A model generated the notes under the pieces. The model saw nothing but the letters and a program-made list of their open reading frames with translations, did no database searches and was not told where the DNA came from. 64,000 nt of DNA from Alphaproteobacteria bacterium (GTDB lineage Bacteria; Pseudomonadota; Alphaproteobacteria; RF32; CAG-239), in contig JAFUSU010000004.1 in NCBI GenBank assembly GCA_017467515.1, positions 64,621 through 128,620 on the forward strand, read 5' to 3'. This document shows positions 5,203-56,691 of the stretch, piece after piece; position 1 is the first letter of the stretch; each line of letters begins with the position of its first letter. Made by a program: the position numbers and the translations under genes.

Positions 5203-5958
5203 ATGGCGGATAATTTACTTGAAGGCAGTCAAATATTAAAAATAGAAGACGGAAATGCTCAACGTCATATAGAATTTCTTGAAGAAGACGAAAAGCAGGA
5301 AGCTACGTTAAAATTGAAGTATTATATGTGGCTATCCCGTTTTTTTGTTTTTTTAGCTATTTTATCATTGACGCTCTTTTGGAGTGCGTCTTTGGCCCTT
5401 TTTCGCTTGGCGCCGGAAGTTAAAGTAAAGCCTTTTCTTATCATATCGCAAGATAACAGCAATGGAATTGTCCGTGCCGAAACGATTGAAACGAGTATGG
5501 CCTCTCGAGATAAATTAACGGAAATGTATGTTAAACAGTATGTTGAAGCGCGGAATACAATTGTTGATGATGAGATAGAGATGATGTCTCGTTGGTTTCC
5601 GGGCGGAATGGTTAATTTTCTGTCATCACCAAAAATATTTGATGCTTTTTCTCAAGATATAGATAAAAAAATCAAAGAACAATTATCAAGAGGAACGGTT
5701 CAAGAAGTAGAAATTGTTGCAACACACCGTGTCGGAGGGCAGCATAGCCCGATATGGAAAGTAGATTTTAAGACATACACTCTGGAAAAAGATGAACAGG
5801 ATAACGCAACAATGGAGCGAGTTATGAAAACCCGCTATTGGACAGCATCAGTGACGGCTGTATACATTAAAGAACGAGCTTTTTCCGGTATTCGATTAAT
5901 TAATCCTTTAGGTTTTACCGTTTTAAGATATTCCCAAGCTTTGGTCGAGGGACTTTAA
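5203..5958 (+). CDS. virB8: VirB8-family inner-membrane T4SS assembly protein (copy 1)
   Basis: VirB8 proteins are bitopic inner-membrane proteins whose periplasmic NTF2-like domain helps assemble the secretion channel with VirB9 and VirB10. This 251-residue protein has a cytoplasmic N-terminus, one membrane segment at about 42-68, then the periplasmic domain opening with VKVKPFLI. It carries the family pattern of Y-V-x-x-R-x-x-I followed by a Trp-rich stretch and ends with N-P-L-G-F-T-V-L-R-Y (about 233-242), the hallmark VirB8 C-terminal motif. Length is normal for the family. It is followed by a VirB7-like lipoprotein and a second VirB8, then VirB9, VirB10 and VirB11. The DotI/IcmL family shares the fold; the neighbouring order favours the VirB branch. 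Confidence 0.85.
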   Translation: MADNLLEGSQILKIEDGNAQRHIEFLEEDEKQEATLKLKYYMWLSRFFVFLAILSLTLFWSASLALFRLAPEVKVKPFLIISQDNSNGIVRAETIETSMASRDKLTEMYVKQYVEARNTIVDDEIEMMSRWFPGGMVNFLSSPKIFDAFSQDIDKKIKEQLSRGTVQEVEIVATHRVGGQHSPIWKVDFKTYTLEKDEQDNATMERVMKTRYWTASVTAVYIKERAFSGIRLINPLGFTVLRYSQALVEGL

Positions 5959-6056
5959 TTCTTTGTTGATATTCTAAGATGATATTAGACATTTAAAAGA
6001 AAAGAGTATAACCTCAAACTAACAGGTTTAGTATACTAAAAATGAGGTATCTCGGA

Positions 6057-6245
6057 ATGATCAAAAAGGTTATAATAGCAATAGCTTTATTGATGTTGCC
6101 ATCGTGTGGTATTTTTGGATCCTATTATGAAGCGGAACCGGTTGGCGTCGGTAAGGGTATTGATGAACTTAAGCTTTCTCCTTGCGCATGCATTCATATT
6201 GAATTGCCAAAAGATTTACCCGATTGGTTCGTTGAAACAATATAG
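6057..6245 (+). CDS. Small lipoprotein, VirB7-like by position
   Basis: A 62-residue protein with a type II signal peptide ending in LPSC, so Cys17 should be lipidated and the mature protein anchored in the outer membrane. VirB7 proteins are small lipoproteins that stabilise VirB9 in the outer-membrane core complex, and this gene sits between two virB8 genes and one gene before virB9, the expected neighbourhood. The mature part contains CxC (PCACIHIEL) and ends in a short Leu-Pro-x-x-Leu-Pro-x-Trp stretch, which could make disulfides or contacts with VirB9. I chose the ATG at 6057 because a GAGG box lies nine bases upstream; an in-frame ATG at 6042 overlaps that box and would add five residues. 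VirB7 sequences are poorly conserved, so the call rests on lipobox, size and position. Confidence 0.65.
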   Translation: MIKKVIIAIALLMLPSCGIFGSYYEAEPVGVGKGIDELKLSPCACIHIELPKDLPDWFVETI

Positions 6246-6258
6246 TTTTGAGGGGTAA

Positions 6259-7002
6259 ATGGAAAATCAGTTAGGAAATAATAACAGCGAACAGCGCCTT
6301 ATCGGTAGCGGACAACCTTCCGTAGCTGCACGGGAAACAATGCGTAGACAGCAAAGGGGGGAGGCTTTTGTTGCAAATAATAACGAGAAAAGGTATTTAT
6401 GGACAGCTCGCGCCTTTGCAACGATTACGGCGATCAGCTTATGTTGTAATGTTGTTTTAATCCTGGCAATTATGCAGGTTATTCCTTTATTCCGTGTAGA
6501 GCCGTATTTGCTGAGTTTTCAGGCTAAAGATGAGCAGGTCTATAATATTCTTCCGTATCAAGACGATTTAGCCGGACATAAATCTATAACAGAGGCTTTT
6601 GTTCGCAGTTATGTCTTGCAAAGAAGCACAATTGTTAACGATGAAACGGAGATGGAAATTCGTTGGTTGCCGGGAGGCCCGATTCAAGAAATGTCGTCTT
6701 CTGCGGTGTATGAGGAGTTTGTCAGTAAAACAGCCAATCGAGCACTGGAATTGGTTAAAGAGAGGGGCTTGCAACGAGAGGTTAATATTCTGACTGTAAA
6801 TGAATTAGGGCAGGGTTTATGGCAGGTCGAATATGAAACAAGAGATATGTATCCCTCGTCTGCGGCGCCTGAGTTGAATTATTGGACGGCTTCGCTGCGG
6901 GTTGTGTATCGCAAAAAGGCAGTTAAATTTAATGATCGCTTGAATAATCCTGTCGGCTTCACTGTTGTTAGGTATTCATTAATGCGCAATAAAACAAAAT
7001 AA
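6259..7002 (+). CDS. virB8: VirB8-family inner-membrane T4SS assembly protein (copy 2)
   Basis: A second VirB8-like protein of 247 residues, divergent from the copy 300 bases upstream. It has a longer polar, Gln/Asn-rich cytoplasmic tail (about 48 residues), one membrane segment at about 50-75, then a periplasmic domain opening with FRVEPYLL and ending in N-P-V-G-F-T-V-V-R-Y. The matched patterns (YV-x-x-R-x-x-I-V-x-D-E-x-E and WLPGG versus WFPGG in copy 1) show the two are paralogues. A strong GAGGGG box precedes the ATG. Rickettsiales also carry two VirB8 copies, where they are thought to occupy different positions in the channel; the same division is inferred here, not shown. Confidence 0.83.
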   Translation: MENQLGNNNSEQRLIGSGQPSVAARETMRRQQRGEAFVANNNEKRYLWTARAFATITAISLCCNVVLILAIMQVIPLFRVEPYLLSFQAKDEQVYNILPYQDDLAGHKSITEAFVRSYVLQRSTIVNDETEMEIRWLPGGPIQEMSSSAVYEEFVSKTANRALELVKERGLQREVNILTVNELGQGLWQVEYETRDMYPSSAAPELNYWTASLRVVYRKKAVKFNDRLNNPVGFTVVRYSLMRNKTK

Positions 7003-7013
7003 GGTAAAATATA

Positions 7014-8615
7014 ATGTTTAAAGTTATAGGAAAATATTCATTCTTTATGTTGATTGCAGGGTTGTTTTGTGGTCGTGCTTATGCGCAAGCAACGATGGGA
7101 AGTTTGGATCAAAATGCGGATCAAAGCCAAGGAATGTATATGCCGATGAATATGAGCTATGCTGGTTTTAATGCCTTGGGTATGACACAAACAGCCTGGA
7201 TGGATCCTTTGCAAAATTTGGGAGAAGGACAAAGTAAGCCTGCGTATTCTAAATATTATTGGTCATCTGATCTTATTTTGCCAATTCGCGTCAGAGAAGG
7301 TATGGTAACGTTGTTGAACTTTCCTAATTGGGAATTAATAGAAGATATTTATTTGGGCGACAGTTCCAGTTTTGATGGGCAGATTACAGGACCGAATACT
7401 GTTTTGCTCTATCCTAAAAAAGGAGCAAATGTCGGGGTTGATACCAATATTGTTATTTTCGGGCGCAGCGGTAATAAGTATGTGTTTTATCTTAAAAGCG
7501 AAGGTGTTAACACAGAACGGCTGACAAATTCTATAATTGATATTGATGTGATAGATGGTCCGTCCGGCTCTAGGGGGGCGGGGATAAGCGGTGGCAATCT
7601 TGGCGGCGGACATAGCGGTGTTAATGCAACGACATTTAAAGGAGGAAACGGAAAATCGATAGATTCTTTGTTTACGAAAAGTTTTCAGAGGGAAGATTGG
7701 ATAAAATCTATTCCTTTGGATGCTTCTAAATTTCGTTTTGATATAGAAGTTTACATCCCAAATCCTGATGATGTTGTTATTGCGCCTGAACGTGTATGGA
7801 GAGATGATATTTTTACCTATATTGATTTAGGAGAAAAATCTTTAACAATGACGCAACGTCCGATTGTGACACTAATCGTTGAAAGGTTAGAAGTTCCTGT
7901 CGGATTTAGAACAAAAGGACCGAATAATCGTTTAATTATTGTCGAAGGAATTGGGGATATGGTTCTGCGCAACGGAAAAAGGATGATTTGCTTAAAGTTG
8001 CGTCGTTCGGATGAGGCCGGTCTTGAATTTACGCCAACGGCAAAAGATATTGAAGATCGTCAATGGAATGTTCCGGCACCTATTCCGTCCGGAATAAATG
8101 GAAATAATTCAGGCGGTTACGGCAGTATGGGCCAGTCGATGAACAGTAATGGAGAGGATTTTATTGTTTCTGATTATCGTCAAGGTGCAAATGGTGGTGT
8201 CAATATTACTTATCGACCGGGGTATAATCTCAACGGGCAAAATGGTGATTTTGATTATTCAAAAATGCAGAGAATAAGCAATAACTACCAATATGCGCCG
8301 GAAGGCAGTTTGGGCAATATGGGTAAAAACAGATCAGGCTTAATGTTTGCTGATAATAGCAATATTTCCATAGAATTGGGAACAGATGCAGATGTGTCAA
8401 AATTAGAAGATTTATGGGGATCTTTATCCAAAAAATATTCAGATTCTTTAGGGCGTTATGAACCGTTCTTCTCGGTTGATGCAGCAGCTGACGGACAAGG
8501 AAAAGAATTGTTTCACCTGCGTGTCGGACCTGTTGATAGTCTGGAAACGGGCGATGAGGTTTGTAGTCAGTTAGGACGTAATGGCGTATTTTGTAGTGTG
8601 GTCAGAACACAATGA
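7014..8615 (+). CDS. virB9: VirB9-family outer-membrane core protein with a C-terminal SPOR domain
   Basis: VirB9 forms the outer-membrane core ring of type IV secretion systems with VirB7 and VirB10. This 533-residue protein has a signal peptide ending AYA (about residue 25). A VirB9 N-terminal domain lies at about 85-180 (LPIRVREGMVTLL, then GDS, then TNIVIF, then YVFYL). The VirB9 C-terminal domain at about 240-350 includes APERVWRDDIFTYIDLG, the usual P-x-x-V-x-x-D-x-x-x-T-Y pattern. A Gly/Asn-rich linker follows, and the last 65 residues look like a SPOR domain (LFHLRVGPVDSLETGDEV, then G-x-x-C-S-V-V). SPOR domains bind denuded glycan strands of peptidoglycan. Ordinary VirB9 is about 270-300 residues and lacks this tail. 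The stop overlaps the next start (ATGA), so the two genes are translationally coupled. Confidence 0.85.
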   Translation: MFKVIGKYSFFMLIAGLFCGRAYAQATMGSLDQNADQSQGMYMPMNMSYAGFNALGMTQTAWMDPLQNLGEGQSKPAYSKYYWSSDLILPIRVREGMVTLLNFPNWELIEDIYLGDSSSFDGQITGPNTVLLYPKKGANVGVDTNIVIFGRSGNKYVFYLKSEGVNTERLTNSIIDIDVIDGPSGSRGAGISGGNLGGGHSGVNATTFKGGNGKSIDSLFTKSFQREDWIKSIPLDASKFRFDIEVYIPNPDDVVIAPERVWRDDIFTYIDLGEKSLTMTQRPIVTLIVERLEVPVGFRTKGPNNRLIIVEGIGDMVLRNGKRMICLKLRRSDEAGLEFTPTAKDIEDRQWNVPAPIPSGINGNNSGGYGSMGQSMNSNGEDFIVSDYRQGANGGVNITYRPGYNLNGQNGDFDYSKMQRISNNYQYAPEGSLGNMGKNRSGLMFADNSNISIELGTDADVSKLEDLWGSLSKKYSDSLGRYEPFFSVDAAADGQGKELFHLRVGPVDSLETGDEVCSQLGRNGVFCSVVRTQ

Positions 8616-11600
8616 AAGAACAAAGAGAATATTTAACTCGTTCTGAAAGTTATGTGAAAAAAACCAACCATATCATTTTGATGGTTGGTATAATCTCTTT
8701 GGCTATTTTTATTTTTGGTTTGCTTCTTATCTTAAGAGAAGAAGAACCCGAAGAACAGTATACAGCCCCCGTATTCACATCTAATGATGATGCCTTAGGG
8801 GCGCAGGAAGATACCGGCCCTCAGGAATCAATAGAGTTTGAAACACTTGAACAAGGCGAAATTCCTATTACGACAACACCGGATCCTGTTGAACTAGGAC
8901 AGGTTGTTTTAGGCACAGAAGCAAAAAATGTTTTGACTATTGGAACAACGGGAAAAATATCAGTTCGGATTATTTCTGTGCAACTTGCCGAACCTCCTTT
9001 TGACGGTTTTAATTTTAAAGAAAACTGCGCCGATAAAGTTTTAAGAGGGCATGAAACCTGTGATGTAACAATGTCTTGGGTTCCGATTGTGCCCGGAAAT
9101 GTCCAGAATAACTTTATTATCACTTGGCGTGAAACGAATTTAAGTTCTTCCAGCAATAAATCTCAGAAAATTCCCGTTACGGGAAAAGCTGTTCGTAAAG
9201 AAGATTGTAATTTTTGTGATACATCAAGTATAGCGGGTAGTAAAGGTGCCGATAAACCGGGGCAAAACGTCAGGTATGCGATTGGACCGAACGGAGAAAT
9301 AATCGGAACAATAGATGAAGACGGATATGTGCGCGATGCAAACGGAAATGTGATCGGTCGCGTTAATGCCAATGGGATGGTTGTTGATGAAAACGGTAAT
9401 ATTATAGGTGTGGCAGAAAATCAACGTCTTGTTTATGATGCAAACGGAAATGTGATCGGACGCGTTTTGGCAGATGGTACCGTTGTTGATGAAAACGGAA
9501 ATATCATAGGAAAAATGCTTCCGGACGGAACGGTTGTGGATAATGATGGAAATGTTATTGGAAAAGCCGTGGATGCCGGTTTTGTTTATGATGAAAATGG
9601 GAATATTATCGGTCGTGTTTTGTCAGACGGCAGCGTGGTTGATAAAGATGGTAACGTCATCGGTCGATTAAATCAAAACGGTGAAGTTGTCGGTTTGGAT
9701 GGACGGATTATCGGTCGTGTCAGTAAGCAAGGACGTGTAGCGATAGATAAAGACGGTAAAGTTCTTGGAATAGTAATGCCTGATGGCTCTGTTGTTGACA
9801 AGAACGGTAATGTCGTTGGCTATATTGATAAGAACGGCAATGTTATTACTAAAAATATTAAGGGACAGGCTGATGAAAATCGTCGACTTGTTTATGATGC
9901 AAACGGAAATGTTATCGGATATGTCAATCCTGACGGCAGTGTTGTCGATAAAAATGGTAAGGTCATAGGAAAAATGCTTCCGGACGGAACGGTCGTGGAT
10001 AATGAGGGCAATGTTATCGGTAAAGCTGCTGCGTCAAAGGGAAAAGAGCGTATTCTTTATGATTCAAACGGAAAAATAATCGGCAGAATAGATGCGGAAG
10101 GAAATATGTATGATGCCAACGGTAAATTAATCGGAAAAATTAAGCCGGATGGATCGATTGTCGATTTAAAAGGAAATGTCATCGGTAAAATAGATAAAGA
10201 TGGCAATATGTACGATGCAAACGGCAAGTTAATTGGAAAAGTTAAGGATTTGGCCTCAACCGCAAAACAAGTTTTGTATGATGCTGATGGTAGAGTTATA
10301 GGCTACGTTGATGCAGACGGTAATATGTATGATGCCAACGGAAATGTTGTTGGAAAAGTTCTTGCTGATGGAACAATGGTTGATAAAAACGGAAATGTTG
10401 TCGGAAAAATTGATAAAGATGGTAATATCTATGATGCTAAAGGAAATATTATAGGAAAAGCAAAGAAAAAATCATCACCTCAGATTGCTTATGACAAAGA
10501 TGGTAATATTATTGGCTATATAGATGAAAACGGTAATGTTATTGATACCAACGGTAACATTATTGGACAAGTCAGATCTGACGGTTCAATAGTGGATAAA
10601 GACGGCAATGTTATCGGCTATGCTTCGGAAATGACAGTGGGGGATTTACGCAGATTAGCCTATGATAAAGATGGTAATGTTATCGGTTATATAGATGAAA
10701 ACGGTAATGTTGTTGACTTTAACGGTAATGTTCTCGGAAAAATGCTTGAAGATGGAACTTTAGTTGATGAAAATGGTAATGTCTTGGGCAAGGCGGGAGA
10801 TTTCGTTAATTTAGTTTTAGATAAAGATGGTAATATTGTCGGCTATGCAACATCAGACGGGCAAATTTATGATGATAAAGGTGAACTAATCGGTTATATA
10901 GATGCCCAAGGGAATATTATCAGTAAATATAATCGAAATATAGGTGCCTTAGTTCAAACAAATATGCTTCCGGTAACGCCGGATGGTAATATTTTGGGGG
11001 AAGTTACCAATCAGGGAACGGTTGAAAAAGATGGACAAGTCTTAGGACGCGTTTTGGCAAACGGTTTGGTCAAAGATGCTGCCGGTTCGGAAGTTGTTGC
11101 TAAATTGGTGCGAAGTGGGTTAGCTATCGGTTTCGGATGTAAAAATATAGGTTACCTCGATAAATCCGGAAAAATAATGAAAGGCAATGCCGATACCAAA
11201 TTGCGCATTATGTTTGACGGTGTTGTTGTTGATAATAACGGAAATTATGTCGGAGAAATCAGTAAAACAGGTCCGGTTTATGATAATTCTTGCACATTTT
11301 TAGGTAATGCAGGAACGGACGGAATAGTCAGAACAACAGAAGGAACGTATGTTGGTTGCTTAAATCCGGATGGAACGGTCTTAAATGAGCAAGGTGACAT
11401 TGTTGGTGCTGTCCGTCGACAAGGTGTTGCTGTCGGAACCGATGGACGGTACTTAGGCCGTATATCTGAAGAAAATTATATTCTGAATTCAAAATCAGAA
11501 AAAATAGGGTGTGTAGGAATTAATGGTGATGTTTTTAATTCAGATAAACAATATATTGGGCATATTTTAGAAAAAACATACGCTTACGATTTACAAGGCA

Positions 11601-12805
11601 ATTTTCTGAATATCGTTGATTCTTACGGTCATGTAGGTATGGCAGGACGAGAGCCCGGGCAAATTTTTATCGGTAAATTGGTCGCAAATTCTAAAAACGA
11701 GGTTATTGGTGTTTTAATGGCTGAACAAACAGCTTTTATAGACGCTTTCGGTAATTTCATCGGAAGATTATTTCCTAATGGCAGTGTCTATAATATGAAA
11801 GGAGCAAATCTCGGCAAGATAACGGGAGACGGATACGGATTTTTAAATCGTCGATTAGTTATTCCTGTCGAAATAGGCCAAATTGTAGATTTTAACGGTA
11901 AGGGAATAGGTCTGACAACATACGATGGTAAAGTTGTTAACCCGTATGGGACACTCTTGGGACAAATAGATGGTAAAGGAAATTTCTTTAATGACAAAGG
12001 CGTGTATGTCGGTGGATTGGTTAAAACGGGCGCCGCAGTCGGTTATGATGGTCGTTATTTGGGGTATAGTTTACGTAACGGAGAAATCATCAGTACGGAT
12101 AGTAAGGTGGTCGGGCATACAACTTCTGACGGTAAAGTTGTTGATGTCAAAGGAAAACTCATTGGGGAAATTTTACCTGAAAACATTCTGATTGATATTT
12201 GGGGGCATTACCAAGGATATACAAATATGTATGGGGATGTTTTAAATATGAATAATGAAACGATTTCAGCAATTTTACCGGGGGGATCTTCTGATAAAAA
12301 TTTAACATTGTTACGGAGAGGCGCGGTTATTGATTTTGGTGGTAATGTCCAAGGCGTGGTTCAACCTGATGGAATTGTTTCCGATAAAGAAAATGTTGAA
12401 ATAGGACGGGTATTGTCTGACGGACAGGTGATTAGCGCGAACGGTAAACTGTTAGGTGATATAATTGATGGAGATATTGTTGTAGACAACGCAGATAAGG
12501 TGGTCGGATATATTAATTTTGACGGTAAAATTATCAATCAAAGCGGAACGATGGTCGGAAAAGTTATTTCAAATGATTTAGCTGTTGATAATAATGAAAA
12601 TATCTTAGGTAAAATATATAAAATTGGTGCTACAATACTTGACAATGAGGGTAAGTATGTCGGTCGCTTAAATGCCAAAGGTATTGTCGTTGATGAATAT
12701 GGAAAAAACAGTGGGTATATAAAAAATAACGGAACATTTGTGAATCTTGATAAAAAAATATCAGGATACGCACTGCCTGAAGTTGCAAAAAACAGAAGAA
12801 ACTAA
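8612..12805 (+). CDS. Giant repeat protein: N-terminal membrane anchor, Ig-like domain and many 17-residue repeats; probable N-terminal half of a split VirB10
   Basis: A 1397-residue protein with a short cytoplasmic tail, one membrane segment at about 20-43 and then an acidic linker, the layout of a VirB10 N-terminus. Residues about 75-195 form a beta-rich, Ig/ASH-like domain with Cys pairs and a closing VTGKAV strand. From about residue 222 to the end the protein is built of a 17-residue repeat of the form V-[VY]-D-x-x-G-N-[VI]-I-G-x-[VI]-x-x-[DN]-G-x. By length there is room for about 65-70 copies; they are nearly identical up to about residue 770 and degenerate afterwards while keeping the 17-residue register. 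It has no VirB10 C-terminal domain: that is in the next gene, 19 bases on. It overlaps the VirB9 stop by four bases. Confidence 0.8.
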   Translation: MKEQREYLTRSESYVKKTNHIILMVGIISLAIFIFGLLLILREEEPEEQYTAPVFTSNDDALGAQEDTGPQESIEFETLEQGEIPITTTPDPVELGQVVLGTEAKNVLTIGTTGKISVRIISVQLAEPPFDGFNFKENCADKVLRGHETCDVTMSWVPIVPGNVQNNFIITWRETNLSSSSNKSQKIPVTGKAVRKEDCNFCDTSSIAGSKGADKPGQNVRYAIGPNGEIIGTIDEDGYVRDANGNVIGRVNANGMVVDENGNIIGVAENQRLVYDANGNVIGRVLADGTVVDENGNIIGKMLPDGTVVDNDGNVIGKAVDAGFVYDENGNIIGRVLSDGSVVDKDGNVIGRLNQNGEVVGLDGRIIGRVSKQGRVAIDKDGKVLGIVMPDGSVVDKNGNVVGYIDKNGNVITKNIKGQADENRRLVYDANGNVIGYVNPDGSVVDKNGKVIGKMLPDGTVVDNEGNVIGKAAASKGKERILYDSNGKIIGRIDAEGNMYDANGKLIGKIKPDGSIVDLKGNVIGKIDKDGNMYDANGKLIGKVKDLASTAKQVLYDADGRVIGYVDADGNMYDANGNVVGKVLADGTMVDKNGNVVGKIDKDGNIYDAKGNIIGKAKKKSSPQIAYDKDGNIIGYIDENGNVIDTNGNIIGQVRSDGSIVDKDGNVIGYASEMTVGDLRRLAYDKDGNVIGYIDENGNVVDFNGNVLGKMLEDGTLVDENGNVLGKAGDFVNLVLDKDGNIVGYATSDGQIYDDKGELIGYIDAQGNIISKYNRNIGALVQTNMLPVTPDGNILGEVTNQGTVEKDGQVLGRVLANGLVKDAAGSEVVAKLVRSGLAIGFGCKNIGYLDKSGKIMKGNADTKLRIMFDGVVVDNNGNYVGEISKTGPVYDNSCTFLGNAGTDGIVRTTEGTYVGCLNPDGTVLNEQGDIVGAVRRQGVAVGTDGRYLGRISEENYILNSKSEKIGCVGINGDVFNSDKQYIGHILEKTYAYDLQGNFLNIVDSYGHVGMAGREPGQIFIGKLVANSKNEVIGVLMAEQTAFIDAFGNFIGRLFPNGSVYNMKGANLGKITGDGYGFLNRRLVIPVEIGQIVDFNGKGIGLTTYDGKVVNPYGTLLGQIDGKGNFFNDKGVYVGGLVKTGAAVGYDGRYLGYSLRNGEIISTDSKVVGHTTSDGKVVDVKGKLIGEILPENILIDIWGHYQGYTNMYGDVLNMNNETISAILPGGSSDKNLTLLRRGAVIDFGGNVQGVVQPDGIVSDKENVEIGRVLSDGQVISANGKLLGDIIDGDIVVDNADKVVGYINFDGKIINQSGTMVGKVISNDLAVDNNENILGKIYKIGATILDNEGKYVGRLNAKGIVVDEYGKNSGYIKNNGTFVNLDKKISGYALPEVAKNRRN
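9271..12790 (+). repeat. 51-bp coding tandem repeat array, first half
   Basis: In-frame tandem repeat with a 51-base period (17 codons). Copies to about 10,920 are close in DNA as well as protein sequence; later copies keep the period but have diverged. Occasional units are lengthened by a few codons (for example near 10,030, 10,260 and 10,640), usually at the junction between groups of two or three units. Confidence 0.85.
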
Positions 12806-12824
12806 ATAGAGGAATTATTCTGAA

Positions 12825-15800
12825 ATGGTAAAAAAACAACTTTTTCAAAAAATGCTAACCATAGGTTTGATCTGTGGTGTTTTGTTTGCTGCCATAATTT
12901 CAGATACGTATGCTCAAGAAATTACTGCCATTAATTTTAACGGTGAGGTTATAGGTAAGGTTATTCCTGATGGTAAAGTTGTCGGTTTAGAAAATCAGCT
13001 TTTGGGTAATGTTACGGCAGACAGCTTAATCGTTGATTTTAACGGAAAAATTATCGGAGGTGTCGTTCCTCAGGGAATTGCTATCGGAAATGATAATAAG
13101 CCGTTGGGAAAGGTCGGTAATGACGGTACGGTTCGTCTGCCTTCCGGAAAAATTGTGGCGCATGTTTTGCCAAACGGTTTGGTTATTGATGAGTTTTATA
13201 ATATTAGTGGTGCCGTATTATTTCCGGGGTTAATCTATTCTGATGAAGGAACAACGATTGGTCGGTTTACCGGAAATGGGGCATATACAAATTTACAAGG
13301 ACAAGAAATCGGCTTTATTTCTCCTGACGGCTATGCTTTTCGTCGGATTGGCGGAGATTACTCGTTGGAAGGACGTTTGATTTCATCTAAAATGGTGATT
13401 TCTAATCAAGGTGAATTTATCGGCAGTATAGCGCCCGGTGGTGCTGTTACTAATTTTGAGGGGCAAACAATCGGTCACATTAAAGCAAACGGCTTTGTTT
13501 ATAATGAGGGCGAAAAGATCATTGGAAATATTGTTCGTAATAAATATGCACTGGATGATTTTGGTCGTTATTTAGGCTTGGTAACTTATAATGGAGAAGT
13601 TGTTAATCGAAATGATATTGTTGGTAAAATGCGTGCAGACAATATGATTGTTAATGATAGAGGCGAAGTTATAGGTTCCACTGTTGATATAGCCGCCACG
13701 GCAACGGATTTTTCAGGGGCTTATTTAGGGCGTATTATGCCGGAAGGAAAAATAGCTCGCGCCAAAGATATTATCGGTTATGTAGGGGCGCGTCGATTTG
13801 TTTATGATAATAATGGTAAACTTATAGGAAAACTTGTTAATTCAGGTCCTGTTTTTGATTACAAAGGGACGCTTGTCTATCAGGCATTGAAGAATGGTTC
13901 CGTAACCACGCTTGATGGAATGACGACAGGTTATATGCAGGATAATATTGCTTATGATAATACCGGCCGCGTTATCGGAGGCAGTTATAATAATATAATA
14001 TCAATTAATGAAAACAATAAAGCATTAGGAGTTGCCGGAATAAACGGTGTTGTTTATGACGGTAGTGAAAAAAAGTTTGTTTCTCCTTTTGGTTATATGT
14101 TTACGGCTGAAGGCAAAAATTCCGGTCGGGGTATTCCATTGTCTGCGTTATATGATGAAAGCGGTTCCGTTAACGCTTATATTATGCCGGGAGGCGATTT
14201 AATTGACAAAGAGGCTGTCGCCATCGGAAAGTTAACGCAATCAGGCATATCAATTAATGAGCGAAACGAAATTATCAGCAAAAATTTAAATTTTGAAAAC
14301 GCTGTTTCCAAAAGGGGCGAAATTATCGGTTCCGTCAGTGTAAGTAATATGATTAGCAAAGGTGATAGTTATATTGCTAAAATTTTACCGGATATGTCGG
14401 TTGTTGAAGATGCATCAAACACAAATTCTTTTGTAAGTCCGCAAATCGGTTCTGCATATAATAACAAAATGGCAATGGGCTTTAACGGGAATATTATCGG
14501 ATATACAAGTCCGGGAGGATATGTTCGGGATATGTCCGGAAGTTCCTTAGGTAAAATCCTCAATGGTAAGGATATTTTTGATAATAATAATACGCTGATC
14601 GGTCATACGGTGGATTATGCGTCAATTATTGATGATAAATGCAATTTTCTGGGTGTGATTACACCCAGAGGGTATGTTCGCAATTACCGAGATATTGTAC
14701 AAGGACGTGTTTTGCCAAACCGACAAGTCGTTAATGAAACAGGTGCCTATATGGGATATGCCGTTGAGCCGACGGCTATGATTAATTTTACGGGAAGCAT
14801 CATCGGTGTCGTTTCCGCAAATGGTCAAGTTTTGAATTACAATAATGAATTTTTAGGCTGTGTTGATCGCCGTGGCTATTTAAAAAACAGTGACGGTATT
14901 ACATTAGCGCATACGGTTGAGTATTATCCGGTTATAGATTTTAAGGGGAATTTTATCGGTCGAACATTGTTAAACGGGTCTGTGGCCAATGCAAAAAGTC
15001 AAATAATAGGTTATATGCAGCCGAATGGAAATGTTAATTCTAAAAATGGTCTGGCACTTGGTAATTTATTTAAATACAAAATAGCTTTTAATCTTCAAGA
15101 TAAATATATCGGTTATGTCGGGACAGATGGTGAGGTTATAAGCTCAAAAGGTGAAAAAATAGGCCAAGTTGATTTTTATGGTAATGTGATTAATAAAGGG
15201 CACAATGTCGGTTATGCGCTATATGATTTTTATATGTATGATGTTGACGGTAAAGTATTGGGTTATATTACAAAAGACGGCAATGTTCTATCCCCGATAG
15301 GCAGCCACATCGGAGAATTAAAACAAGGATTTTTAATTGATAAAGATAATCAATTGATAGGCAGGGGAAATAGAGATTATTTAATCAGAGATAACAGTGA
15401 TCAAGTCTTGGGAGAATTAAATCTCAAAGGAGAATTAATTAATTTTGACGGACAATTGTTGGGAACGTTGAATGCAAAAGGAGAATTGGTTACCAATAGC
15501 GGCAGATATATAGCAAAAGCGCATCCTCTTCAATATTATCACGCACAATCATATATGACAAAACTTTATGATGCTAATGGCAGATTTATAGGCTATGTTG
15601 ATGCTAACGGCAATGTTGTTGATGAAAACGGTAATGCAATCGGAAAGCTCTTAGAAAATGGTGATATTGTTGATTTGGAAGGCAATATCATTGCTCAGAC
15701 CAACAATGAAAAATATGTTTATGATGAAAACGGTAATATTATCGGTAAGGTTCTCTCCGATGGGACGGTCGTTGATTTAGATGGTAATATTATCGGACGT

Positions 15801-18800
15801 GTTTTGGCCGATGGAACAGTCGTTGATAAAAATGGAAAAATTATCGGTAAAGCAGATGTCAGTGACTTGGTTTTTGATAAAGATGGTAATGTCATAGGTC
15901 GGGTTTTAGCCGATGGATCGGTTGTTGATTTGGCCGGTAATGTCATTGGTAAGGTTCGTCCGGATGGAACGGTCGTTGATAAAGATGGCAATGTTATCGG
16001 TAAGGCCGATGTCAGTAAGTTGGCTTTTGATGATGCCGGAAATGTGATCGGTCGTATTATGCCGGATGGAACGGTTGTTGATAAAAATGGGAACATTATA
16101 GGTAGTTCGGAAGACGATAATTTAGTTTATGACTTGCAATGCAATATCATTGGTCGATTACAGATGGATGGAACGGCACAGGGACTTAGCGGTAAGATTA
16201 TCGGAACCTTTGGTAAAGATGGCAAAGTTGTCGATGAAAATGGTTTGTTTGTCGGCTACACATATACAGATACTTTTATTCGAAATAAGAAAGGAAACAT
16301 TATCGGTCGCATAAAATCAAACGGTGGCGCTGTTGATAAAAATAATAAAATTATAGGTCGTATTAAGTTTAACGGTGAAGTCGTCAATAAGTTAGATAAG
16401 GTTATCGGATACGCTGATGCGGGTAATTTCATCTTTGATAAGAGTGATTTTGTAATCGGTCGAATGAATCGTTTAGGTGAGGCGCTTGATATAAAAGGCA
16501 AAAAAGTAGGAAATATTACATCTAACGGTGAGGTTGTTGATAGTAAAGGGAACAGTTTTGGTCGGACAGACGTTTCAAAATATGCTTTTGATCGAAAGGG
16601 AAGCTTCTTAGGACGCTTAAACAGTAAAGGTGAGATTATTAACAAAGATTGTAAGATTGTTGATGCTCAAGATAAAGAAATCTACGTTTATGATGAATAC
16701 GGCAATATTATTGGTCGTGTTCTAAGTGACGGTACAGTTGTTGATATGGATGGTAATGTTATCGGTAAAGTTCGTCCGGATGGTTCGGTTGTTGACGAAG
16801 AAGGTAAACTTCTTGGCTATGCAGATGTTAAAAATTTAGTCTTTGATAAAGACGGCAACGTTATTGGACGCATTTTAGCCGATGGTTCTGTTGTTGATAA
16901 GGATGGTAATGTTATCGGTAAAGTTGGAGATAACGGCGTAGTATATGATAAAGATGGTAAGGAAATAGGAACAACCGCCCAAAACCAATTTGTTTACGAT
17001 GATAACGGTAATATTATCGGCCGTTTATTACCGGATGGGACCGTTGTCGATTTGAACGGTAATTTGCTCGGACGTATTAATGCCAACGGTGAAGTTGTCG
17101 ATGAAAACGGAAACATCATAGGTACTGTTGATAAAGCAAATTTGGTTTATGATGAAAACGGTAAAGTCATCGGACGCGTTTTAGCGGACGGAACGGTTGT
17201 CGATTTAAATGGTAATGTTATCGGTCGAGTTTTGGCTGACGGAACGGTTATTGATAAAGAAGGAAATATTATCGGTAAGGCCGATGTCAGTCATTTAGCT
17301 TTTGATGAAAACGGTAATGTTATCGGAACGATAATGCCGGACGGTACGGTTGTTGATGAAAATGGAAATGTTATTGGTAAAGTCTTAAAAGATGGAACCA
17401 TTGTGGATAAGAATGGTAAAATAATAGGGCGTGCAGATACTTCTAAATTTGTTTATGATGAAGATGGAAATATTATCGGGCGTGTTTTACCGGATGGAAC
17501 GGTGATAGACTTGGAAGGAAAAGTTATCGGGAAAATGACGGAAGACGGATCTGTCGTTGATCTTAATGGAAATGTTATTGGATATGTCGGTAAAAATAAG
17601 CTGTTGGATCCTTTTGATAATAGCACGGGAAGAAGAAAGGTATGGTTTAGCCGCTCTCGAGATCCCAGTCTGAAAAGCAAAGAAAAAGAAAATTTACCCA
17701 AAGTCGGTTTGTCACCCATTTCAGACAAAGAAGTTGAAAAATATCGTAAAGCGCTTGGGGTTGCTTTAACACCGGATGGTGAATATTTAGGCGAAATTAT
17801 GGAAGACGGTTCTGTTGTTAATAAAGAAGGAAAAGTAATAGGTCATCGTACGCCTGACGGTTTGATTGTAGACAACGAAGGTGCTTTAATAGGAATTGAA
17901 GAAATTGAGCGTCCACAGGTTGCCGAGGAAATGTTTGTTCCTCAGGGAACCTTTGGGACAGGTGGTGCTTACGGAATGGGAACCGGCCCCGGGCAAAATT
18001 TAGGTCCCGGCGGAGGTTTTGGTCCGGGGGAGAGATACGATCCTCAGCGAGCCGCGGCACTGGGCGCTGCTCAACAGTTCAGAAGAACGGGAATACAGGT
18101 TGGAAAGATAAGCTCGAATGCTGATAGAAATGCTTTTGACGGAATGCAGGAAGATTGGTCAGACCAAGGTGTGTCTAAAACGATTTCTTCTTGGCGCGTC
18201 AATATGAGTGAAATGATTTTGGCGGATAAAGCAATTCCTGCCGTAATTGCCCGATCTATTGACAGCAATCATCCGACGCCGGTTACCGCTTATGTTGAAA
18301 GAAATGTATATGCGGAAGAGGGGCGGAATATCATTATTCCGGCAGGCAGCCATTTAATCGGAACATTGGGCGGACTAACAGGAACCTCAGAAACAACGTC
18401 TGTTTCTGCAAAAGTATCAATTACTTGGGAAAGGTTAATTCGTCCGGATGGCTCAATGTTTAAATTTAACGGTATAACGGCAGACGCTCAGGGTAGAGGA
18501 GGAGCTTTAGGTTATTTGGATCAGCAATTATTCAAAAAATATACATTACCGATTATGACAACAGCTTTGACCAGTTATGCTTCGTATATGATGGCAGATG
18601 ATAAAAATTCGGATGGTGAGATCGAAACGCCTAAACAACAAGCGGCCAATGATGCTCGCGATAACTTCTTGTCTGATATGAAGCAAATTTTTGAGCAAAT
18701 TTTAGCCGATAAGGCAAATATAAAGCCGTTAACCTATGTTCCTGCCGGTACGCGTATTATTATTTATCCAAACACGGATTTATGGATAAAAACAGAAAAG

Positions 18801-19130
18801 AGAAGCGATAAGAAAATTGGTTCAGGAACTTTCGAGGGAGAAGCCGGCGGACGCGTCTTGATTGATGATAAAGCAAGAGCAAAGCAAAGAGCAGAATCAA
18901 ATGCTCGAGCAGAAGTTGTTTATAATGCGGGTGAATCTACACCGGTATCTTCATCAGGCGATGAAAATAGACCGGTCTTGATTGACGACAGAGCTAAAGC
19001 ACAGCAAAGAAGCAACAGTAAGGCCTCTGCCGGAGCTTTACCGCCACCGCCGCCTTCAACACCAGCGCCGACATCAACCCCATCGTCATCACAATCAAGC
19101 TCAACAAGCAGCATTCCGCAATTATTCTGA
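12825..19130 (+). CDS. virB10: Giant repeat protein with a C-terminal VirB10/TrbI domain
   Basis: VirB10 spans the envelope and forms the outer-membrane cap of the secretion channel. This 2101-residue protein starts behind a GAGG box with a cleavable signal peptide ending TYAQ (about 31) instead of the usual inner-membrane anchor. The 17-residue repeat then fills residues about 32-1590 (room for about 90 copies), degenerate first and almost perfect from about 910 onward; two further units lie at about 1645-1690. After a Gly-rich linker, residues about 1750-1990 are a VirB10/TrbI domain: VIARSIDS, PVTAYVERNVY, IIIPAGSHLIG, ITWERLIRPDG, and finally PAGTRIIIYPNTDLWI. The tail holds two VLIDD-[KR]-A-[RK]-A units and a Pro/Ser-rich end. 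With the preceding gene it makes a two-chain VirB10 of about 3,500 residues. Confidence 0.85.
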   Translation: MVKKQLFQKMLTIGLICGVLFAAIISDTYAQEITAINFNGEVIGKVIPDGKVVGLENQLLGNVTADSLIVDFNGKIIGGVVPQGIAIGNDNKPLGKVGNDGTVRLPSGKIVAHVLPNGLVIDEFYNISGAVLFPGLIYSDEGTTIGRFTGNGAYTNLQGQEIGFISPDGYAFRRIGGDYSLEGRLISSKMVISNQGEFIGSIAPGGAVTNFEGQTIGHIKANGFVYNEGEKIIGNIVRNKYALDDFGRYLGLVTYNGEVVNRNDIVGKMRADNMIVNDRGEVIGSTVDIAATATDFSGAYLGRIMPEGKIARAKDIIGYVGARRFVYDNNGKLIGKLVNSGPVFDYKGTLVYQALKNGSVTTLDGMTTGYMQDNIAYDNTGRVIGGSYNNIISINENNKALGVAGINGVVYDGSEKKFVSPFGYMFTAEGKNSGRGIPLSALYDESGSVNAYIMPGGDLIDKEAVAIGKLTQSGISINERNEIISKNLNFENAVSKRGEIIGSVSVSNMISKGDSYIAKILPDMSVVEDASNTNSFVSPQIGSAYNNKMAMGFNGNIIGYTSPGGYVRDMSGSSLGKILNGKDIFDNNNTLIGHTVDYASIIDDKCNFLGVITPRGYVRNYRDIVQGRVLPNRQVVNETGAYMGYAVEPTAMINFTGSIIGVVSANGQVLNYNNEFLGCVDRRGYLKNSDGITLAHTVEYYPVIDFKGNFIGRTLLNGSVANAKSQIIGYMQPNGNVNSKNGLALGNLFKYKIAFNLQDKYIGYVGTDGEVISSKGEKIGQVDFYGNVINKGHNVGYALYDFYMYDVDGKVLGYITKDGNVLSPIGSHIGELKQGFLIDKDNQLIGRGNRDYLIRDNSDQVLGELNLKGELINFDGQLLGTLNAKGELVTNSGRYIAKAHPLQYYHAQSYMTKLYDANGRFIGYVDANGNVVDENGNAIGKLLENGDIVDLEGNIIAQTNNEKYVYDENGNIIGKVLSDGTVVDLDGNIIGRVLADGTVVDKNGKIIGKADVSDLVFDKDGNVIGRVLADGSVVDLAGNVIGKVRPDGTVVDKDGNVIGKADVSKLAFDDAGNVIGRIMPDGTVVDKNGNIIGSSEDDNLVYDLQCNIIGRLQMDGTAQGLSGKIIGTFGKDGKVVDENGLFVGYTYTDTFIRNKKGNIIGRIKSNGGAVDKNNKIIGRIKFNGEVVNKLDKVIGYADAGNFIFDKSDFVIGRMNRLGEALDIKGKKVGNITSNGEVVDSKGNSFGRTDVSKYAFDRKGSFLGRLNSKGEIINKDCKIVDAQDKEIYVYDEYGNIIGRVLSDGTVVDMDGNVIGKVRPDGSVVDEEGKLLGYADVKNLVFDKDGNVIGRILADGSVVDKDGNVIGKVGDNGVVYDKDGKEIGTTAQNQFVYDDNGNIIGRLLPDGTVVDLNGNLLGRINANGEVVDENGNIIGTVDKANLVYDENGKVIGRVLADGTVVDLNGNVIGRVLADGTVIDKEGNIIGKADVSHLAFDENGNVIGTIMPDGTVVDENGNVIGKVLKDGTIVDKNGKIIGRADTSKFVYDEDGNIIGRVLPDGTVIDLEGKVIGKMTEDGSVVDLNGNVIGYVGKNKLLDPFDNSTGRRKVWFSRSRDPSLKSKEKENLPKVGLSPISDKEVEKYRKALGVALTPDGEYLGEIMEDGSVVNKEGKVIGHRTPDGLIVDNEGALIGIEEIERPQVAEEMFVPQGTFGTGGAYGMGTGPGQNLGPGGGFGPGERYDPQRAAALGAAQQFRRTGIQVGKISSNADRNAFDGMQEDWSDQGVSKTISSWRVNMSEMILADKAIPAVIARSIDSNHPTPVTAYVERNVYAEEGRNIIIPAGSHLIGTLGGLTGTSETTSVSAKVSITWERLIRPDGSMFKFNGITADAQGRGGALGYLDQQLFKKYTLPIMTTALTSYASYMMADDKNSDGEIETPKQQAANDARDNFLSDMKQIFEQILADKANIKPLTYVPAGTRIIIYPNTDLWIKTEKRSDKKIGSGTFEGEAGGRVLIDDKARAKQRAESNARAEVVYNAGESTPVSSSGDENRPVLIDDRAKAQQRSNSKASAGALPPPPPSTPAPTSTPSSSQSSSTSSIPQLF
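12920..17900 (+). repeat. 51-bp coding tandem repeat array, second half
   Basis: The same 17-codon repeat as in the preceding gene. Here the order is reversed: copies from 12,920 to about 15,550 are degenerate, and those from about 15,560 to 17,600 are nearly uniform, with a patch of variants at about 16,130-16,680. Two isolated units lie at about 17,760-17,900. Long antisense open frames in this stretch are by-products of the biased repeat codons. Confidence 0.85.
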
Positions 19131-19141
19131 TAGGAGATAAG

Positions 19142-20110
19142 ATGAGTTTTAAAGTATTAGAATCAGTGTTAAGACCTTTAGCCTATTGGTATAATCAAGA
19201 AAACATAGAGGAAGTAGCAATCAACAGAGCCGGACAAATTTGGTTAAGATTGCGCGGCAAAAGAGCCTATCCGTGGGTTATGTACAAAGATGAAAAGCTC
19301 AGCAAGGAATATTTAACGGATTTACTCTATATCATTGCAAATACTTATGAGCTTCCGTTTGACCCAATTCAAGGAACACCGGTTGTGTATGCAACGATTC
19401 CGGGCGACCATCGTTTTTCGGCGATTTGCGGAAAAAACGTAATGTATGATCAAGGCGATTTAACGGGAGGCATTGCTTTAACAATTCGTGTTCATAGTGA
19501 TGATGTTGCCTTTGGTTTGGGCGACTATGGCCTAAAACAAGGCGAGCAGCTTCACAAAATTAATCCATTGAGAGCGATAAAAGATCCGGAAGATCCTTAC
19601 GAGCGACTACTGCTGAGTATTAAGCGAGGAGATCATATTCTTGTGAGTGGTGCCACCGCCACCGGAAAAACAACATTTTTAAATAATTTATTGAAAATAT
19701 TGGATATTCATAAAAGAATTATCACAATTGAGGATACCCGAGAATTAATTGTTCCACATCCTAACCGTGTGCATGTGGTTATGTCGCGTACGGATCAAAC
19801 CAACGATTTCAGCTACGCGAAAATTATTGACTTAGTGGTTCGTTTTACGCCCGATGCAATCATCGGAGGGGAAATTTCAACAAGTAATGCCGGCGCTCTA
19901 TGGGAGTTGATGGGATCAGGACACGATAACTGCTTGGCTACAATTCACGCCGAAAGCTCAGAGGCGGCTTATGCTGCTTTCACAGATCGTATTTTGCATA
20001 GTTACCCGAGCATTGATAGAGCTAAAACGATTCAGGAAATGCATAAAAAACTGCGCGTTGTTCAGATTAACAGAGATGGAAACTTGCGCGCCGTAACAGA
20101 AGTCACATAA
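19142..20110 (+). CDS. virB11: VirB11-family traffic ATPase
   Basis: VirB11 is the hexameric cytoplasmic ATPase at the base of type IV secretion systems that switches between pilus building and substrate transfer. This 322-residue protein has an N-terminal domain of about 130 residues and a RecA-like domain with Walker A GATATGKTT (about 170-178), the Asp box ITIEDTREL, a Walker B-like region TPDAIIGGEIS, and the His box TIHAES (about 266). Length is typical of VirB11, and the gene follows virB10 by 11 bases as in classical virB operons. DotB and PilT relatives share these motifs; the N-terminal domain and gene order favour VirB11. Confidence 0.9.
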   Translation: MSFKVLESVLRPLAYWYNQENIEEVAINRAGQIWLRLRGKRAYPWVMYKDEKLSKEYLTDLLYIIANTYELPFDPIQGTPVVYATIPGDHRFSAICGKNVMYDQGDLTGGIALTIRVHSDDVAFGLGDYGLKQGEQLHKINPLRAIKDPEDPYERLLLSIKRGDHILVSGATATGKTTFLNNLLKILDIHKRIITIEDTRELIVPHPNRVHVVMSRTDQTNDFSYAKIIDLVVRFTPDAIIGGEISTSNAGALWELMGSGHDNCLATIHAESSEAAYAAFTDRILHSYPSIDRAKTIQEMHKKLRVVQINRDGNLRAVTEVT

Positions 20111-20210
20111 TCCCTTAAAATAGTTGCTCTAAGGCGTAAATATTAACCTGAAATTTACAACCTTCTGCTAATCTGGTAAAAGATAGAAATTTAACCAGAG
20201 ATTGACTGAC

Positions 20211-22679
20211 GTGGAAAGTTCAACGAAAATTAAGAAGAATTATAAGCTGATGGGGACAGAAAGCGATCCTGTCATCATTGCTCAGCGTCTGCTCAATTTG
20301 TATCGGCAACTTCATATTTTCAGTTCAGATAAAAAAGATGCCTACGACAGAATGCTGTTGGAACAACCTGCTGAAATAAAGAAAATATTAGGTACTTTAC
20401 CCGGAGGAATAGTTGTTCAACAGTATATTGCAGATTTGGAAGCTGAAAAAGGACTGGCTGTTGAAAATTTTGAAAATGATTTACCTCCTAAACCGGAACC
20501 GGTAGCCGCACCGGTATTTACAGCAGATCCACAGGGAACGCAAAGAGCGGCACCTGTTCAACCGACTGTGGTTTCCGTTGCTAATGATCCTGCAATGATA
20601 AAGGGAATTGTCGATGCTTTTAAGGAAGCAATAATCACTTCTGAAAAAAATCGGAAAGAAGACACAAAAGAATTAGCGCAAACAATTGTTGCTTTGCAAA
20701 GCAAATTAATGCAAAGTATGATGGCAAAAATGCCCACAACACCGGCTCAAAATCCGACGGTTGAAGCAAAATCGGCAACGGTCGAAACCACAAAGGTAAC
20801 CACGGTTGAAACAAGAGTAACATCATCAAATGAAGCGTCCGGAGGCATACAAGCTTCGCAATTGGAAGATATTGTTGCCGGAATTTCAAGAGCTCAATCT
20901 CAATTAATCAAAGAAATGGCGGCAACGCAAACGGAACAGCTGTCACAATTAATCAGTAAAGTTCTTAAAGAAATACAGCAAATGTCAACGCAGACATTAA
21001 TTGATGCTGTGCAGGCCGTTCATCGTGAAAATATGGATTTTTTTAAAAATCAAATATTCAGTAGTGTCAGTATGGTTCCTATCAATAAAGAAATGGCTGA
21101 TGACGAAGATGATGAAGATTATTTTTATGAAAGAAAAAAAGCAAAAAAATCCAAAAAACGCAACACACTTCGGACCGAAGAAAAAAATGCCGAAGATTAT
21201 GAATGGCAGTATGTTTCGGAACCGATAGAACAAGAAACATATCAGGATGAAGAAGATAAAGATAATGCGGATGAATGGGAATACGTTGAGGAACCTGTTC
21301 GGGAAGAAGTTACAAAAACAAAATCTTCCTTAGATGATGAACCGGATCCGACAGATAATTTTTTACCGCAATCATTTGTGGAAAATGAAAGAAACAAACA
21401 AAAAGATGATGACGTTTTTTTCCGACCGGATGAAGCCGAACCGGATATAAGAGATTCTTTTCAGCAAGATGAAAAAATTAGTGAAATAAAGAATGATGAA
21501 GATTTTTCGGAAGATAAAAATACAGAAGAAATACAGGAAAAAAATAACGAAGAGTATGAATGGGAATATATAGATAATGTTCAAGATGAAAATAAAATAG
21601 AGTCGGAAAGCACTATATCTCAGAAAGCCGAAGAAGGTGAAGACTACGAGTGGGCGTATGAGGAAGAAGAAACGCCTAAAGAGGAAGTTGAAGCCGAGCC
21701 TGAGCCTGAACCGAAACCCGAACCCGAGCCGGAAATAGAAACGGTAGAGGAAGAAAATCCACAGGAGGAAAATGTTGAGCCGATTGATTTAGACGGTGAA
21801 GAAACGTTTGCGGAACCTGAAGAAGAAAGTGCACCGCTTTCAGGAACCGAAGAAGGTGAAGATTACGAGTGGGCGTATGAGGAAGAAGAAACACCTAAAG
21901 AGGAAGTTGAAGCCGAGCCTGAGCCGGAACCCGAACCCGAGCCGGAAATAGAAACGGTAGAGGAAGAAAATCCACAGGAAGAAAATGCTGAGCCGATTGA
22001 TTTAGACGGTGAAGAAACGTTTGCGGAACCGGAAGAAGAAAGTACACCGCTTTCAGAAACCGAAGAAGGTGAAGACTACGAGTGGGAATACGTAGAAGAT
22101 GATGAAGAACCTGAAAAAGATACAGAAGACAGTGCAAATGCAACAGATTTAGATGTCGAAACAGAAAAAAAAGAAGATTCAGAACCGGAAGAAGATTATG
22201 AATGGGAGTATGTTGAAGATGGGGAAGCTGAAGAAGGAGAAGATTACGAATGGGAATACGTAGAAGATGAGCCTCAAACAGAAGAAAATCCGGAAGATAA
22301 TGTATTGCCGATTAATTTAGATGAGGAAGAAAAAGAACCGGAAGCAGCATCTGAGCAAGATGAAAACAATGAAGAAGACTATGAATGGGAATATGTAGAA
22401 GATGGGGAAGCTGAAGAAGGTGAGGATTACGAATGGGAATATGTAGAAGACGAGCCTCAAACAAAAGAAAATCCGGAAGATGACGCATCGCCGATGGATT
22501 CAGAAAAGCAAACAGAGGAAGAAATTTCAATAGATGACTTACTTTCAGAAAGTGCAACGGAAAATTCTGAGGCAGTTTCCAAAGCAACACCTAAAAAATC
22601 TAAGAAAAAAAAGAAAAAGAATAAAAATAAAAACAAAAGAGCAAAAGAAAACACAATAAAAGAAACCGGAAATATTTGA
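20211..22679 (+). CDS. Acidic cytoplasmic protein with about ten Tyr-Glu-Trp-Glu-Tyr repeats
   Basis: About 822 residues, with no signal peptide or membrane segment. Residues 1-75 look like a small folded helical domain, followed by a Pro/Ala/Thr-rich linker and a helical, Gln-rich region (about 220-290). From about residue 325 the protein is extremely acidic and contains about ten copies of an E-D-Y-E-W-[EQA]-Y core at irregular spacing, including a duplicated block of about 80 residues (about 480-640). The last 35 residues are Lys-rich. The charge pattern suggests a disordered scaffold with aromatic stickers. It starts at a TTG (20202) or the GTG at 20211; I prefer GTG because the AGAG box is ten bases upstream of it and only one base from the TTG. 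It follows virB11 by 100 bases. Function unknown. Confidence 0.7.
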   Translation: MESSTKIKKNYKLMGTESDPVIIAQRLLNLYRQLHIFSSDKKDAYDRMLLEQPAEIKKILGTLPGGIVVQQYIADLEAEKGLAVENFENDLPPKPEPVAAPVFTADPQGTQRAAPVQPTVVSVANDPAMIKGIVDAFKEAIITSEKNRKEDTKELAQTIVALQSKLMQSMMAKMPTTPAQNPTVEAKSATVETTKVTTVETRVTSSNEASGGIQASQLEDIVAGISRAQSQLIKEMAATQTEQLSQLISKVLKEIQQMSTQTLIDAVQAVHRENMDFFKNQIFSSVSMVPINKEMADDEDDEDYFYERKKAKKSKKRNTLRTEEKNAEDYEWQYVSEPIEQETYQDEEDKDNADEWEYVEEPVREEVTKTKSSLDDEPDPTDNFLPQSFVENERNKQKDDDVFFRPDEAEPDIRDSFQQDEKISEIKNDEDFSEDKNTEEIQEKNNEEYEWEYIDNVQDENKIESESTISQKAEEGEDYEWAYEEEETPKEEVEAEPEPEPKPEPEPEIETVEEENPQEENVEPIDLDGEETFAEPEEESAPLSGTEEGEDYEWAYEEEETPKEEVEAEPEPEPEPEPEIETVEEENPQEENAEPIDLDGEETFAEPEEESTPLSETEEGEDYEWEYVEDDEEPEKDTEDSANATDLDVETEKKEDSEPEEDYEWEYVEDGEAEEGEDYEWEYVEDEPQTEENPEDNVLPINLDEEEKEPEAASEQDENNEEDYEWEYVEDGEAEEGEDYEWEYVEDEPQTKENPEDDASPMDSEKQTEEEISIDDLLSESATENSEAVSKATPKKSKKKKKKNKNKNKRAKENTIKETGNI

Positions 22680-56666: not shown

Positions 56667-56691
56667 TATCACACCTGTTTTGTTGTTAAAT

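Follow-up and report, generated by a model that had tools for sequence, protein, structure and literature searches.

Introduction

VirB10 of type IV secretion machines has been described as a single chain that runs from the cytoplasm to the outer membrane and senses the ATPases; it physically connects the cytoplasmic ATPases with the outer-membrane gate and is a strong candidate for the trigger of machine switching (PMC12624023). Here we analyze a locus, from a family of gut bacteria, at which this protein appears to be made in two pieces. The locus lies in a 64,000-nucleotide stretch of an Alphaproteobacteria bacterium genome (GTDB lineage RF32; CAG-239; assembly GCA_017467515.1, contig JAFUSU010000004.1, positions 64,621–128,620), hereafter called the window, whose own numbering is used throughout. 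Two adjacent genes, designated A and B, occupy the place of the VirB10 gene.

The VirB10, TrwE, TraF and ComB10 proteins of type IVA core complexes have the same TrbI domain and the same position between VirB9 and VirB11, but each is a single chain, a few hundred residues long, with no such repeats, whereas here there are two repeat-bearing chains of 1397 and 2101 residues. CagY of the Helicobacter pylori Cag system, a giant VirB10 of 1927 residues, resembles the locus in its large, length-variable tandem-repeat region and its TrbI-domain match. However, CagY is a single chain with alpha-helical repeats (PMC2581425), and the repeats of A and B are predicted to be all-beta. Rearrangement of the CagY repeats tunes the Cag machine (PMC3585145). 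DotG/IcmE of the Dot/Icm system is likewise an enlarged, repeat-bearing VirB10 relative, and tomography suggested a stalk location for its pentapeptide repeats (PMC7511231); as described, it is set apart from A and B as a single protein with a different repeat. In the literature searched we found no paper describing a two-chain VirB10, nor one on a VirB10 with beta repeats like these. An anciently fixed, natural two-piece VirB10 tests the need for covalent continuity in VirB10 signalling, and it does so with a ready-made comparison, because split and single-chain forms with the same domains coexist in related families.

The anchor and the TrbI domain lie on separate proteins

Gene A (8,612–12,805; 1397 residues) and gene B (12,825–19,130; 2101 residues), defined as the N- and C-terminal pieces of VirB10 from their open reading frames (ORFs) and alignments, with relatives for A and Pfam for B, sit between VirB9 and VirB11 and 3′ of two VirB8 genes (Pfam), in the order VirB8-VirB9-VirB10-VirB11. 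These genes and all features within A and B are on the + strand. Protein A has one N-terminal hydrophobic helix, near residue 21 (about residues 19–41; 8,666–8,734), which is preceded by basic residues and predicted by hydropathy to have its N terminus inside; in the AlphaFold2 model of an A homologue, L067, the helix covers residues 9–40. A PapD/ASH-like beta domain follows at about residues 85–195 (8,864–9,196), identified by a structural match of the L067 model: its beta domain aligns with the CEP192 ASH domain (6fvi) with a VIA-align Z of 12.9 and an rmsd of 2.9 over 120 residues. A choice-of-anchor-D profile also matched this domain of A, below its cut-off (E = 9e-5). The PapD/ASH-like domain, which the model would place just outside the inner membrane, is present in single-chain VirB10 forms as well. 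Pfam found no TrbI domain in A; of the two proteins, B alone has it.

Protein B begins with a signal peptide (about residues 1–30; 12,825–12,914), recognized by its hydrophobic N terminus and an A-x-A-type site, with putative cleavage between TYA and QEITA, as in the split homologues listed. The TrbI/VirB10 outer-membrane core domain (18,216–18,785) matches PF03743 at B residues 1798–1987 with E = 4.5e-33, above the Pfam cut-off, and its profile matches solved ComB10 (2bhv; 1e-32), the nearest solved sequence, together with CagY, TrwE, VirB10 (6gyb) and TraF. The chain that bears the TrbI domain thus has a signal peptide instead of an inner-membrane anchor, the anchor being on A, while in the single-chain outgroups anchor and TrbI domain are on the same chain. 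A proline/serine-rich tail ending in PQLF closes B (18,786–19,127), and F is the last residue in 65 of the 80 homologues of B; the terminal PxLF-like motif is conserved and is retained in most single-chain relatives. The ORFs, their sizes, the signal peptide of B and its ribosome site are all as the first-pass annotation had described them. Its claim of a VirB10 divided between two proteins is borne out by the anchor and ASH domain on A, the TrbI domain on B and homology to single chains, and on this sequence evidence we conclude with high confidence that A and B together are a split VirB10.

The gene junction suggests coupled translation

The end of gene A is conserved as EVAKNRRN, and the signals of the two genes overlap. 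In the window a ribosome-binding site, GAGGAA (12,809–12,814), stands just 3′ of the A stop and ahead of the B start codon at 12,825. Among 71 homologues with the RRN ending, 64 carry GGAGG within the last codons of A. This embedded GGAGG uses CGG and AGG, which are uncommon in the rest of A, where they make up 10.6% and 4.1% of the codons for arginine. A Shine-Dalgarno sequence for B inside the last codons of A implies coupled translation. The gap from the A stop to the B start is mostly 1–3 nucleotides among 73 distinct junctions, which are spread over all three relative frames (14/26/33). Because all three frames are used, an A–B fusion by stop readthrough or programmed frameshifting is ruled out as a general rule.

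The split probably arose once by gene fission

We surveyed relatives at 99 loci, including 80 named loci from a species-genome collection (mostly gut metagenome assemblies, Azospirillum sp. CAG:239 among them). The same two-gene split that had been anticipated in relatives was found at 79 of these loci, which does not amount to 79 independent species since some loci share genomes; 73 junctions are distinct. Two loci have one ORF and 18 have no detected A; two of the latter (L049, L050) encode an ordinary short VirB10 with no repeats, and the other 16 are at contig ends or are broken or masked before the A N terminus.

The two outgroup single chains, L047 (1273 residues; genome G034) and L048 (2831 residues; genome G053), come from two families and are repeat-filled. 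Their N-termini align with that of A (43% and 33% identity to the window sequence, respectively) and their C-termini align with the TrbI domain of B. Single chains with both domains are also found in families f74 (2157–2529 residues) and f91 (2193 and 2232 residues). Within the class, the profile of the A N terminus was found in 20 of 385 genomes; in a phylum-wide sample of 398 genomes only the window's own genome matched, and there was no match among 72,556 plasmids. In a TrbI-domain tree all 24 split forms, one of which belongs to family f51, group in one clade (93/87) with the single-chain forms outside it; the split state requires one change, and 92% of bootstrap trees recover the split forms as a single clade. 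The placement of f51 is less sure because its row is a long branch. This single clade points to one ancient gene fission. The first-pass annotation had held that relatives with the two genes as one would refute its reading. Such relatives do exist, yet solely in families outside the split clade, which indicates that the A/B pair arose by fission of one ancestral VirB10 chain.

An apparent second, independent split in G231 (L156) was rejected: the second frame lacks a signal peptide and duplicates the final part of the first, so that a frameshift is the probable cause. At L150 (5,044–10,301; family f51) gene B itself is in two frames, again probably by frameshift. A 25,213-residue frame in G413 is an artefact that arises from masked bases, of which L086 has 7,729.

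Both proteins are built of a predicted all-beta 17-residue repeat

In both A and B the repeat recurs every 17 residues exactly, with in-phase autocorrelation out to 119 residues (at least seven units), and a typical unit reads DxNGNVIGRVLxDGTVV. B has in addition a super-period of 51 residues; a three-repeat period of 51 or 52 occurs in the arrays of several relatives. A position-specific scan, at a threshold at which shuffled proteins yield a few matches each, detected 61 copies in A and 84–85 in B, of which one B copy (after residue 2000) is probably false. The earlier estimate of 65–70 and 90 copies is reasonable in that it takes in more degenerate units. Exact direct repeats in the region stay below 40 bases, the longest having at least 30, and the arrays are therefore within reach of short reads.

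The Pfam beta-flower (PF21784/PF21785) and DUF3659 (PF12396) models, which describe hairpin repeats with a [DNEQ]xxG turn like those here, match both proteins far beyond chance (E down to 1e-126), PF21785 scoring 337 and 415 bits against a 38-bit cut-off. However, described beta-flowers are single closed barrels of 4–6 hairpins, whereas A and B carry dozens of uninterrupted repeats. In this genome the DUF3659 repeat is above threshold only in A and B, besides a weak match in a 1433-residue transglycosylase-domain protein.

In the AlphaFold2 model of a block of 17 repeats from B (pLDDT 77, pTM 0.52), each repeat has two short strands. The whole L067 homologue (1146 residues, 45-row alignment) gave a pLDDT of 84 and a pTM of 0.72, and its order is a membrane helix, a separate beta domain (84–192) and then strands from 223 to 1137 without long linkers. 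The repeats are therefore predicted to be all-beta, in keeping with the earlier proposal of beta-rich repeats, and they show none of the alpha-helical modules of CagY; the A homologue is predicted to be a continuous all-beta chain after its helix. The pTM of the L067 model suggests a fairly rigid superstructure, which might be a rod, a spiral or a bead string. Foldseek searches of PDB and viral structures with the repeat region returned local similarity only (TM about 0.1–0.2) and no solved structure that matches globally, and VIA-align gave Z of at most 4.3 for the repeat block. Rhs/YD-repeat proteins share local 3Di similarity with the block (Foldseek E about 1e-13), but with TM-scores about 0.1 this is no global match.

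Constant cores border the split and variable arrays face the membranes

Across 45 homologues of A, residues 1–400 and about 700–1397 align nearly gap-free, the latter comprising the conserved repeat core and C terminus (10,709–12,802), while an array at about residues 401–690 (9,812–10,681) differs in repeat number, with gap fractions of 0.46–0.97. The 80 homologues of B are conserved over residues 1–900, including a repeat core of near-zero gap fraction at about 31–900 (12,915–15,524), and over 1650–2000; the array with the 51-residue super-period, about residues 901–1640 (15,525–17,744), is variable, with gap fractions up to 0.97. Thus, cores of constant length (the last ~700 residues of A and the first ~870 of B) border the split and the variable arrays face the membranes. 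Across 72 pairs A has 1037–2734 residues and B 1393–2101, the window's B being the longest of these pairs; a neighbour, G002, whose A is truncated where the contig ends, has a B of 2366 residues. Compensation between the lengths of the two proteins was rejected: the raw Spearman coefficient is −0.68, but phylogenetic contrasts give r = 0.03.

A proposed periplasmic joint and its alternatives

With VirB10 broken into two proteins, the connection from one membrane to the other would have to be restored through contacts between them. The account that we find fairly probable is that of a two-piece VirB10 whose gene was split once in the ancestor of the lineage and whose halves rejoin non-covalently in the periplasm; in the non-covalent joint itself our confidence is moderate. 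A would be anchored in the inner membrane with its beta-repeat arm reaching into the periplasm. B would be exported separately; its TrbI domain would sit next to VirB9 in the outer-membrane core complex, and its own arm would be directed back. The constant cores that close A and open B would probably pair in the periplasm, restoring the link from membrane to membrane with no covalent bond, and the variable arrays, which in A would lie close to the inner membrane and in B beside the TrbI domain, may be spacers that set the reach, with possible effects on channel height or signalling. The overlapping translation signals would keep production of A and B together. A has a predicted mass of 148.6 kDa and B, minus its signal peptide, one of 221.5 kDa. 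Known core complexes have a copy number of 14; at that number an A and B set would total about 5.2 MDa. The first-pass interpretation is supported in part: its two regular stalks, meeting in the periplasm or outside, would be one possible arrangement, and the taller or extendable channel that it proposed is plausible. We more tentatively envisage, for the lineage as a whole, a secretion-machine backbone that is not covalently continuous, in which a periplasmic joint of giant beta-repeat arms, with array length setting the span, could allow inner and outer parts to move, extend or assemble separately.

Several points weigh against this account. Binding of A to B is something we infer rather than observe directly, and other partners could account for the conservation of the constant cores. 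The single chains are not alignable with A and B repeat by repeat, so the fission point is not located in them; core profiles used to place it cross-match between repeats. B might also function by itself at the outer membrane, and A would then have another role.

This last possibility can be put as a full alternative: B, having its own signal peptide and a complete TrbI domain while A has none, would by itself be the working VirB10, on the outer-membrane side and with no inner-membrane anchor, and A would have become a separate scaffold or sheath at the inner membrane, part of the same machine but not linked to B. We regard it as unlikely, because A retains exactly the N-terminal anchor and ASH domain used by single-chain relatives, the genes look translationally coupled and both cores beside the split are conserved almost without gaps. 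It is improbable that the repeats extend from the cell as a fibre or adhesin sheath on its surface, with the TrbI domain serving only as the anchor, as proposed for the CagY repeat region. The strong differences in array length among relatives (A 1037–2734 residues) would suit such a fibre, as would host selection of CagY repeat variation (PMC3585145) and the reported sheathing of a surface filament by CagY (PMC2581425), but the repeats stand between the inner-membrane anchor of A and the TrbI domain of B, which are periplasmic positions in known VirB10, and the membrane-anchored A bears them too. An assembly or frameshift artefact, or frames joined by recoding, is hardly credible even for a draft assembly with internal repeats and with likely frameshifts at two outgroup loci (within B at L150, and at L156 in a single-chain gene), as the same boundary recurs in 79 loci from many assemblies, in three relative frames and with exact repeats under 40 bases.

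Neighbouring genes

The two VirB8 paralogues (5,203–7,002; PF04335, E = 1.3e-14 and 2.3e-21) are consecutive in the window, and an adjacent pair is present in many relatives. VirB9 of the CagX family (7,014–8,615; Pfam CagX, E = 1.2e-11) lies directly 5′ of gene A, and its end overlaps the A start by 4 bases. Its CagX domain is found in 15 of 15 relatives; it also carries a C-terminal SPOR-like domain, detected in 8 of the 15 at E ≤ 0.001, which suggests peptidoglycan contact. The VirB11 ATPase gene follows B (19,142–20,110; T2SSE, E = 2.6e-21). VirB11 of this system is present as one copy in 82 of 101 family genomes and 15 of 16 genera, a distribution that indicates a machine mostly inherited and sometimes lost. 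A VirD4-type coupling protein gene is on another contig (C15). No match to the relaxase families PF03432 and PF08751 was found in the genome; other relaxase families were not searched.

Just upstream (L051, 4,315–12,158; 20 kb upstream of the window), secretin, PilO-like, T2SSE and T2SSF genes resemble a type IVb pilus set, which directly precedes VirB4 and the secretion operon. At 52,431–56,732 on the − strand, a 1433-residue protein with several membrane helices has a transglycosylase SLT domain, and its residues 1243–1307 match beta-flower/DUF3659 weakly; two VirB6/TrbL-like genes lie near it, farther along the window than A and B. Another 1433-residue protein, with a signal-like N terminus and no family match, is encoded 5′ of the VirB8 genes (893–5,194). 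An 825-residue protein encoded 3′ of VirB11 (20,202–22,679) has no Pfam or NCBIfam match; a protein of the relative L034 has a similar N terminus.
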